Assembly: GCA_951802195.1 (NCBI GenBank) | Contig: OX637625.1 | Coordinates: 1 to 64,000 of the forward strand | Reading direction: 5' to 3' | Length of the DNA: 64,000 bases | Source of the DNA: Tausonia pullulans | Taxonomy: Eukaryota; Basidiomycota; Tremellomycetes; Cystofilobasidiales; Mrakiaceae | Shown: one piece after another, positions 1 through 29,909 of the stretch | Position numbering within the stretch: the first letter of the stretch is position 1 | How the letters are laid out: every line of letters begins with the position of its first letter | Translations under genes and position numbers: made by a program | Notes under the pieces: generated by a model | Told to the model about the DNA's origin: nothing | Seen by the model: the letters and a program-made list of their open reading frames with translations, nothing else | Database searches by the model: none

Positions 1-214
1 ACCCAACCTACCGACCCAACCTACCGACCCAACCTACCGACCCAACCTACCGACCCAACCTACCGACCCAACCTACCGACCCAACCTACCGACCCAACCT
101 ACCGACCCAACCTACCGACCCAACCTACCGACCCAACCTACCGACCCAACCTACCGACCCAACCTACCGACCCAACCTACCGACCCAACCTACCGACCCA
201 ACCTACCGACCCAA
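1..214. repeat. 13-bp tandem array, probable non-canonical telomere
   Basis: Sixteen perfect head-to-tail copies of ACCCAACCTACCG fill positions 1-208, followed by a six-base partial copy that breaks down at 215. The strand shown is C-rich with one G per unit; its complement is CGGTAGGTTGGGT, with a TTGGGT core. At a left chromosome end the C-rich strand is expected to read 5' to 3' inward, as here. The array starts at the first base of the window and is followed at once by a subtelomere-type transporter gene. There are no spacers, so this is not a CRISPR array. An internal minisatellite that happens to be cut at the window edge cannot be excluded from sequence alone. Confidence 0.75.
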
Positions 215-589: not shown

Positions 590-3136
590 ATGGGCATTTT
601 CGAGAAGGCCAACGTCGATTACGAGCTGGAAGAGCCGCTTCGCCCGGCGAAGGGGGAGGCTGGAAGACACAAATGGATTGGGTAAGCCAGGAATTGCTCT
701 CTGAACACGGCGGTGGAGCTGACCCCCTCACCCGCCCTCCCTCTCCCCCCTCCCCTCCTCCACCCACCCATATCAAGTTATTTGTGGGACTCGGCAAACA
801 ATTCTGCTGAAGAAAGAAAATTATTATTCAAGGTCGACGCTGCGATCCTCACCATTTTCTGTGTACGTGGCCGTGCCGTTCGAGCAGGGGGACGGTATCT
901 GACAGCATTTCCAACAGCTCGGATATCTTGGGAAAGCGTTCGTTCGACTCGCTAAGCATTCAGTGGATCAATCTGACTGCGGGTTGTTCTCCCAGTCTGG
1001 TTCAATCGGACGCGAACAACGCATTCTTGAGCGGCATGAAGGAAGATCTGGGCATGTATGGCAACGAGCTTGTGCACAGTACGTCTTTTGCTCTACGACT
1101 GCGATGCTGCGATCTGTCCTTATGCTGGTCTTCCTTGTCTCCCTCCTTTCTTTAACTCCCAGGTCAAACTCTGTTCAACGTGGGATACATTCTCGGCCAG
1201 CTCCCATACACCCTTCTCCTCACCCGTTTCCCTACCCACTGGTGCATTCCCGCTCTTGAGATCCTCGTCGCAGCAATGACGATCGCCAACTACTCGGTGA
1301 AGGACGTCAAGTCGCTCTACGCGCTTCGCTTCTTGGCAGGGTTCTTCGAGGGAGGCTACTTCCCGGGAGTCATGTACATTTTGTCTAGTTGGTACACCCC
1401 GGTCGAGCTTGGGAAACGCAGTGGGCTCTTTTACGCGTCAGGCAGTTTGGTGAGTTTGTTTGCGTCTCCCTCTTGCGACTCCTCTCTTGTAACCCGGGAA
1501 CTGATCTTAGCTTATCTACAGGGTGGAATGTTCTCTGGAGTGTTCCAGAGTGCTGGTACGAACAGGTCTGGCGCTTCCTCCGTTGCAAAGCTGACGTTGC
1601 GCGCGGATTCTCAGCTCACACGAACCTGAACGGTGTCGGAGGACTCGCAGGCGTACGTCGCTTCTCTCAAAATCCGAGTATCGCCTGTTGATCATACATC
1701 CTGTGATACTACAGTGGAGATGGCTCTTCATCATCGACGGAATATACCTCTTCGGTGTAGCCCTGCTCGGACTTGTCTTTATCCCCGACATCCCCTCGTA
1801 CGTTTCACTTCTTCATCTTCTTCCTCGCTTTAACCGATCTTGACCGCACCTCCTTTTTTGATTTTGGCGTGCAGCATGGCGAAACCGAACTTCCTCATGT
1901 CACAGTCTGATATTGATCTGGCCAAAGCTCGTCTGGAGAGGATTGAGCGCGCGCCTCCGACTCCGTGGACGAAGGCAAAGTTCAGGCGTATCGTCTCCTC
2001 ATGGCAGCTCTGGCTCTTCCCGATCTGTTACGCTATGTATAACTCGGGAACGCGTGAGTCTTCAAACGCTTGCTGTTGCAGAAACTCAAAACGTGTGCTG
2101 ATGATCTCATCACCTTTTCCAGCTCAGCAAGGAATGGGTAGGACATGTTTATCCAGTCCAAGTCTGTTAACTCAGCTGACCAACTTGTTTTGGATAGGCT
2201 ACTGGCTCAAGAGCTTCAACGCGTCGAAGGGCCACCCGGCTCCGGTGCCAGGCAAATCGTACTCCATCTCTCAAATCAACTTGCGTGCGTCCTTCACGCG
2301 AGCACCTATCATATTCTCTGTGGAGTGCCAAAACTGACCTCGTTTTGCTTCGTGCCAGTTCCACTTCCTTACCTCGCCGTTGCTGCCGTGACCGGATTTG
2401 TGTTCAACCTGCTGTCGGATGGGCCTCTTGGAGGTCGGAGATGGCCTGTCGCGCTCTTCTGCAACGTAGGAAACTTCGCTGTTGCACTGGGGCTGCTCTT
2501 CATCCCACTCTACAACGACATCCCAGGTCGATTTGCTCTGTATTACCTTAATTACATCAACACTGGAGCCGCTATGGCAATTTACAGCTGGCAAGCGGAG
2601 TCTACGGCGTTCGATGTACGTTCCCAGGGTGTTCAAGCTGAGGCGGACCGCGTCTAACCCTGCTTTTGCATCACAGAGCGAGCTGCGTGCCATCGTTTCG
2701 GCTGTATCGAACATGGCTGCGTTCATCATCAACGCCATTGCGCCCAACTTCGTGTGGAAGGTGAGCAAACTCGAAGCGACACGTGGACGAAGAGCGGTGT
2801 GTTTACACTATGACTTTTTGCAGACCGTCGATTTCCCTCGTGCCCACAAAGGATACATCTTCTCCATCTCCTTGTCGGCGGTTCAGTGTGCGTACTCTCC
2901 AGTCACATCTCAGAATGGAGGGTTCAATCTGACACAAACTCGCTGAAACAGTTGTCGTTATCCCGCTCATCCTGTTCCTCGAGGCCCGCCAGAAGAAAAT
3001 CGACGCACGCGCAAAGGATGCGGAGGACAACTCTCCTCAGAATCCGAGCTCGTCATCCGAGAAGGGGGACATCGAGGATCTCGAGCCCGCCGTTATCAGC
3101 TCGCTTGGTCGCGCGCCGGATACGATTCGGGTGTAG
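590..3136 (+). CDS. MFS transporter, allantoate/nicotinate permease (Dal5-type) family
   Basis: This is a multi-exon anion:cation symporter-family MFS protein, probably plasma-membrane uptake of a small organic acid or nitrogen compound; the substrate cannot be read from sequence. The start MGIFEKANVDYELEE leads to the family pattern WDSANNSAEERKLLFKVD before TM1, then NNAFLSGMKEDLGMYGNEL, GYILGQLPYTLLLTRFP and the central NLNGVGGLAG/WRWLFIIDG block. Later exons carry LDGPLGGRRWP-like and YSWQAE segments, and the cytoplasmic tail ends in RAPDTIRV. At least ten introns of 50-100 bases are apparent. The junctions between about 860 and 1000, around TM1, are uncertain and could hide a small defect. 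Its position next to the chromosome end fits the common subtelomeric placement of fungal transporters. Confidence 0.85.
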
Positions 3137-29769: not shown

Positions 29770-29909
29770 TCCTTAAGTCTCCATCCTCGTTGACCAATCA
29801 CTATCCATTTCTTGGGACCCTCCGCGCTCTGAGGATCGGCAAGCCCTTTGTGGCCAAAACCTACCGACCCTTGCTTCACGTTACTGTCTCTTCTCAGCTA
29901 CAAAAATAA
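29770..29909 (+). pseudogene. Coding fragment, possibly PC-esterase-like
   Basis: A plus-strand frame reads SPSSLTNHYPFLGTLRALRI, then GKPFVAKTYRPLLHVTVS. The GKPF..(K/E)TYRP core matches GKPFATETYRPWVC of the PC-esterase-like protein encoded near 20590. The resemblance is short, so homology is only suggested. It has no start and no continuation. Confidence 0.25.

Follow-up and report, generated by a model that had tools for sequence, protein, structure and literature searches.

What kind of structure opens contig C6, and what makes its repeat? The window, a stretch of 64,000 bases comprising positions 1–64000 of that contig, begins directly with a tandem array of a 13-base unit, in which two features are distinguished:

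Window 1–208, plus strand: very probable telomere of 16 perfect C-strand units ACCCAACCTACCG; the G-strand unit CGGTAGGTTGGGT lies on the minus strand with its 3′ end outward.
Window 209–214, plus strand: innermost partial unit ACCCAA, which joins unique sequence (the G-strand reads ...cagaTTGGGT, then CGG).

For window 1–214, Tandem Repeats Finder reports the unit ACCCAACCTACCG with a period of 13, 16.5 copies, 100% matches and 0% indels. Exact matching yields 16 units. With up to 2 mismatches, the window beyond the array holds no further copy of ACCCAACCTACCG, and 100 shuffles had a mean of 1.02 and a maximum of 4 matches, compared with 16 in the actual sequence. The preliminary description had counted 16 perfect copies running C-strand inward from base 1, and this count is confirmed. 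Since the window starts at the first base of C6, the array sits at the contig tip. We consider bases 1–214 to be, with high confidence, the left telomere of a basidiomycete chromosome, whose 13-base unit is most likely made by telomerase; this grading, drawn from sequence, is separate from that of the RNA locus. Next to the array, a gene for an MFS transporter (PF07690, 53.6 bits; window 1165–1449) starts within ~1.2 kb of the telomere, with a likely start codon near 590.

The assembly comprises 23,855,473 bases in 21 contigs. For 40 contig ends we examined the terminal 3 kb, and the window provides the 41st, so that every end except the right end of C21 is covered. The unit occupies 33 of the 41 tips (33 of 40 for contigs C1–C20) with 510 full copies in total. 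At all 33 arrays the C-strand runs inward, while the unit in reverse orientation is absent from all 41 end stretches. Thirteen contigs carry an array on both ends and seven on one end; C21 has none at its examined end. From tip to last full unit the arrays span 125–276 bases (median 209), and none of the 33 inner junctions, read by hand, repeats the flank of another. At the opposite tip of C6 there are 17 full units, oriented as a mirror image and interspersed with irregular pieces.

Canonical TTAGGG telomeres do not cap this genome: CCCTAACCCTAA has 0 matches on either strand of the whole assembly (bases reading N excepted). CCCCTAACCCC occurs 9 times, never at a tip, and its reversed control 26 times. 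Away from the tips, a core-based contig search finds the 13-base unit in short copies only, the longest of 22–25 nt, and no array. The earlier proposal that this unit serves as telomere in place of a TTAGGG type had pointed to the contig ends as the place to look, and it is supported by the 33 of 41 ends capped in telomere orientation together with the lack of any CCCTAACCCTAA. Neither of the observations named as speaking against it was made: the assembly contains no TTAGGG-type CCCTAACCCTAA, and inside the contigs the search met the unit in short copies rather than in an array.

Eight of the 41 ends carry no array. The left ends of C17 and C20 consist of 3 kb reading N. At the left end of C3, small-subunit rRNA lies 1.9 kb from the tip, while C21, examined at its left end, is an 18.8-kb contig with three tRNAs within 1.5 kb. 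The left ends of C5 and C11 and the right ends of C8 and C9 finish in other sequence. Here, C11 left and C9 right have 2.1 kb in common at 97%, C5 left and C9 right 365 bases at 99.7%, and C8 right matches no other contig end. The ends that lie near rDNA (C3 left) or in sequence shared between contigs (C5 left, C11 left, C9 right) seem to be incompletely assembled and not truly bare.

A telomerase protein and a POT1-like gene are found on contig C11:

C11 ~1156.4–1161.9 kb, minus strand: TERT gene, with its extent read and its exons joined by eye.
C11:1173772–1174032: POT1PC domain (PF16686), 40.7 bits against a cut-off of 27.2.

The RNA-binding domain of TERT is matched with 67.4 bits when the genome is searched, the alignment crossing one stop, and with 65.8 bits when a clean exon is used (cut-off 25). 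The exons contain the readable stretches KVDVRSCFDTM, QKSGIPQGS, RLVDDFLLVT, and WCG, which we take to be motifs A, B, C, and E, respectively. The PF02765 profile for POT1 gave no match, nor did it in the controls, which makes this negative uninformative. The TERT and POT1-like genes lie ~12 kb apart on the same contig.

Among 8000 scored candidates, 199 are TERT homologues; of the 120 of these that were listed, the closest is from Phaffia rhodozyma with 51% identity, and the others listed reach at most 44%. In a midpoint-rooted tree of 28 rows (27 listed proteins and the query, which fills 40% of the columns), the query and Phaffia form a group supported at 100/100, whose stem measures 1.06 changes per column. 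This pair falls outside the other basidiomycetes, on the ascomycete side at 81/78, a placing that probably reflects a long-branch effect. Phaffia is described as a member of the Cystofilobasidiales within the Tremellomycetes (PMC5103461). The pairing, based on one gene, thus suggests that the fungus belongs to the Cystofilobasidiales, and it is also the ground on which we treat the organism as a basidiomycete. The query and Phaffia TERT have the long stem in common, and the rapid change of TERT may be connected with the new repeat.

The G-strand of the unit can be written as (TCGGTAGGTTGGG)n and comprises three blocks, TCGG, TAGG, and TTGGG. The perfection of the window array is not typical of all ends, as 17 of the 33 arrays are free of irregular pieces between full units. 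The other arrays hold 23 such pieces, 20 of which are whole blocks CGGT, AGGT, or TGGGT:

Whole-block pieces: CGGTTGGGT, six; CGGT, five; TGGGT, four; CGGTAGGT, two; AGGTTGGGT, one; CGGTCGGT, one; double CGGTTGGGT, one.
Non-block pieces (three): CGGGT; CGTAGGTTGGGT; one with TGGT.

Six further irregular pieces, at the very tips, stand outside this classing. These whole-block changes would be explained if the DNA 3′ end GGT paired with another ACC of the template. In this mechanism, telomerase would copy the 13-base unit from an RNA template that exceeds one unit, and occasional pairing of GGT with another of the three template ACC sites would drop or add whole blocks. The pieces between units are concentrated in the inner half of the arrays (21 of 23, p 7e-5, tip pieces left out); with the six tip pieces included and position taken by midpoint, the inner half holds 20 of 29 (p 0.06). 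This lends weak support to the idea that tips are trimmed and rewritten while older, varied units are kept inside. A hand tally of the 33 junctions shows starts with GGTTGGG (19), GGGT (4), GT (4), TTGGG or GTTGGG (3), CGGT (1), and AGGT (1), and one without any.

Candidates for the template were sought with three 12-mer cores followed by KK within 14 bases. As KK never occurs in the repeat, this search returns only array edges and stray copies. It covers stretches of at least 16 bases in every register and shorter ones partly, and it may miss copies that KK does not follow, an estimated one in ten or so. Six stray copies of at least 16 nt were found. Four are no more than 10 kb from a contig end (C1 right, 24 nt; C7 left, 22 and 24 nt; C16 right, 25 nt), and two lie far inside contigs, namely on C3 (23 nt) and on C5 (18 nt). 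The five perfect interstitial copies of 22–25 nt are:

L075:230–253.
L076:154–175.
L077:150–173.
L078:162–186, minus strand.
L072:2268–2290, situated 504 kb inside C3.

Such a narrow range of lengths (22–25 nt) suggests that these are binding sites or insertions made by telomerase. By a Markov estimate based on the window, 0.005 copies of 18 bases and 4e-6 copies of 23 bases are expected. A search of the window, of L072 and of L096 with Rfam yielded no telomerase RNA.

Shorter matches to the unit also occur. Nine internal 14–15-mers (L082, L084, L086, L087, L089, L090, L091, L092, L093) recall the telo boxes described for plants (PMC3022908), and two of them, L091 and L092, have the flank ccctttgtgR in common. 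The 14 start positions of such 14–15-mers compare with 1.3–1.5 expected genome-wide, a rough figure given that the registers were partly searched. Within the window, the 13 bases AACCTACCGACCC at positions 29858–29870 match the telomere unit; their flank is ttgtggccaa.

The leading candidate for the telomerase RNA locus, to which we assign slightly less than even confidence, lies on C5:

C5:945347–945364, minus strand, far inside the contig: candidate template CCCAACCTACCGACCCAA, an 18-mer (13+5) of 1.38 units.

As a template, 5′-CCCAACCUACCGACCCAA-3′ at C5:945347–945364 (minus strand) would let TTGGG anneal to the CCCAA at its 3′ end and would direct the addition of 13 bases in each round. 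A formate–tetrahydrofolate ligase gene (Pfam FTHFS, 145.1 and 143.9 bits) of the same strand has its stop ~785 nt before the 18-mer, and a convergent 656-codon frame without Pfam match follows; the gap between the two spans ~1.38 kb with 52.7% GC. By position, the 18-mer thus falls into the 3′ region of a protein gene in the same orientation, and the candidate telomerase RNA may be derived from the 3′ region of the ligase transcript. Stop-to-stop frames of 239 and 124 codons overlap the template. As these show no coding-type codon bias, the region is probably noncoding. Downstream, an AT-rich stretch begins at +60 and an Sm-like motif AAGATTTTGAGG lies at +463; of 7 other loci, 5 also have a motif of this pattern within 1.2 kb, and 2 have an AT-rich window. 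The fold of the region is no better than that of shuffles (z −0.19), a hairpin adjoining the template is weak, at −0.9 kcal/mol, and a scan for H-type pseudoknots gave no convincing model. The register of the commonest junction start, GGTTGGG (19 of 33), is not one that the C5 template favours.

A second site, on C3, is an unlikely template. Here, telomerase would copy the 23-nt ACCTACCGACCCAACCTACCGAC at C3:504267–504289 (plus strand), which would leave a 10-nt annealing part. This copy is the longest far from a contig end, with a chance expectation of ~4e-6. Moreover, it lies in sense with an open frame that ends 6 nt upstream, AT-rich windows follow downstream, and annealing parts of 1–10 nt are on record (PMC8211666). 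Against it stand the four copies of 22–25 nt within 10 kb of contig ends, which indicate that the C3 copy may itself be a relic or a protein-binding site. Further, the next gene, whose resemblance to Steroid_dh is sub-threshold (E 0.21), begins ~380 nt away (start placed by eye). For the frame upstream, 8000 scored candidates yielded no homologue at E 1e-3, no Sm-like motif lies within 1.2 kb, and the fold is not clearly better than that of shuffles (z −1.16). Telomere variants cannot separate the C3 and C5 templates, since the three ACC sites are identical in both. The preliminary description had predicted a telomerase RNA locus with 1.3–1.5 copies of the unit. The 18-nt match on C5 (1.38 copies) agrees with this as a candidate; a rival of 1.77 copies lies on C3.

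That the template is instead one of the shorter copies of 14–15 nt, annealing through 1–2 nt, appears doubtful as well. For CCTACCGACCCAACC at C14:46856–46870 (minus strand), the register fits the commonest junction start, GG followed by TTGGG, at 19 of 33 ends, and an annealing part of 2 nt is documented (PMC8211666). None of the nine 14–15-mers is singled out by length, however, and none of the six that were read in 2.4 kb of context is better than C5; the other three were read in 91–101 bases only. In all, a locus other than C5 and C3 is possible, with a weight below that of C5 and above that of C3.

All of these sites would serve a telomerase. A subtelomeric minisatellite maintained by recombination is, by comparison, very improbable. 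In its favour, near-end sequence is common to many contigs, and the arrays are short and often perfect. In contrast, the arrays sit at the tips, face outward in 33 of 33 cases and have differing flanks; the irregular pieces match the blocks expected from template slips, the search of contig interiors found no large array, and the genome encodes TERT. Least credible is an artefact of sequencing or assembly, for instance a systematic miscall of TTAGGG: the outermost bases are indeed irregular in six arrays, and coverage usually reaches its minimum there, but left and right ends are exact reverse complements of one 13-base unit across 33 ends, whereas nanopore miscalls of telomeres differ by strand, and no TTAGGG remnant pair is present.

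With telomerase as the preferred maker of the repeat, the structure is of an ordinary kind, a telomerase telomere, while the repeat itself is beyond the range found for the phylum. The basidiomycete units reported in PMC10100673 are TTAGGG, TTAGGA, TTAGTG, TTGGA, and TTAGGGGG. Other accounts give TTAGGGG for Filobasidium (PMC9210288), the C-strand TAAC(4,5) for Cryptococcus and Kwoniella (PMC11185503), TTAGGG for Rhodotorula taiwanensis (PMC5766836), and TTAAGTG for some Malassezia, where changes are attributed mainly to single-base changes of the template (PMC12506658). The step to 13 bases would need more than such a change. The telomere described here resembles those of basidiomycetes in its short terminal arrays, its G-rich 3′ strand and its TERT and POT1 type proteins. 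It differs from the units of 5–8 bases in these sources in that it has 13 bases and a G-strand without TTAGG.

Longer units had been ascribed in the preliminary description to ascomycete budding yeasts, and the literature agrees: in the Saccharomycetaceae, units extend up to 28 nt with annealing parts of 1–10 nt across the family, and 13-nt units are listed for all but one species of Torulaspora (PMC8211666). The present unit is like these in being a long non-TTAGGG repeat, with 13 nt as the likeness in length, and in those yeasts the template is described as slightly longer than the unit. Unlike them, this fungus belongs to another phylum. For Drechmeria (Pezizomycotina), a 12-base motif is described (PMC10100673). 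The unit has 26 permutations on its two strands; 12 of these were searched for, and none occurs in the open-licence PMC papers covered. The collections viral_contigs and genome_contigs, neither intended for fungi, contain no copy of the exact 26-mer.

In Ustilago and Malassezia, the telomerase RNA is reported to come from a protein-coding transcript and to carry an Sm-like site near its 3′ end (PMC11206666, PMC12506658, PMC10035886). The C5 candidate is similar in following a protein gene in the same orientation and in having AT-rich sequence and an Sm-like motif beyond it. In contrast to the cases in these reports, its neighbour is formate–tetrahydrofolate ligase, and its putative template has 18 rather than 9–11 nt. 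In Kwoniella, which belongs to the class of Phaffia, the telomerase RNA is said to be unidentified (PMC11185503).

A joint reading, tentative and on the unlikely side, would connect these observations. In the Phaffia lineage, the template would have grown to three ACC blocks, taking the repeat from 6–8 bases to 13, and the RNA would be processed from the 3′ region of the formate–tetrahydrofolate ligase messenger. The past lengthening would then be the same kind of event as the block slips of today, and the words of 14–25 bases would be sites taken over by a new telomere-binding protein.

For telomere biology, a 13-base unit in this phylum would imply that the ascomycetes are not the only group in which long, sequence-shifted telomeres arose. 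Short arrays on near-complete chromosomes make it a clean case for the joint change of template, slippage and telomere-binding proteins, for which our analysis names candidate telomerase RNA loci.
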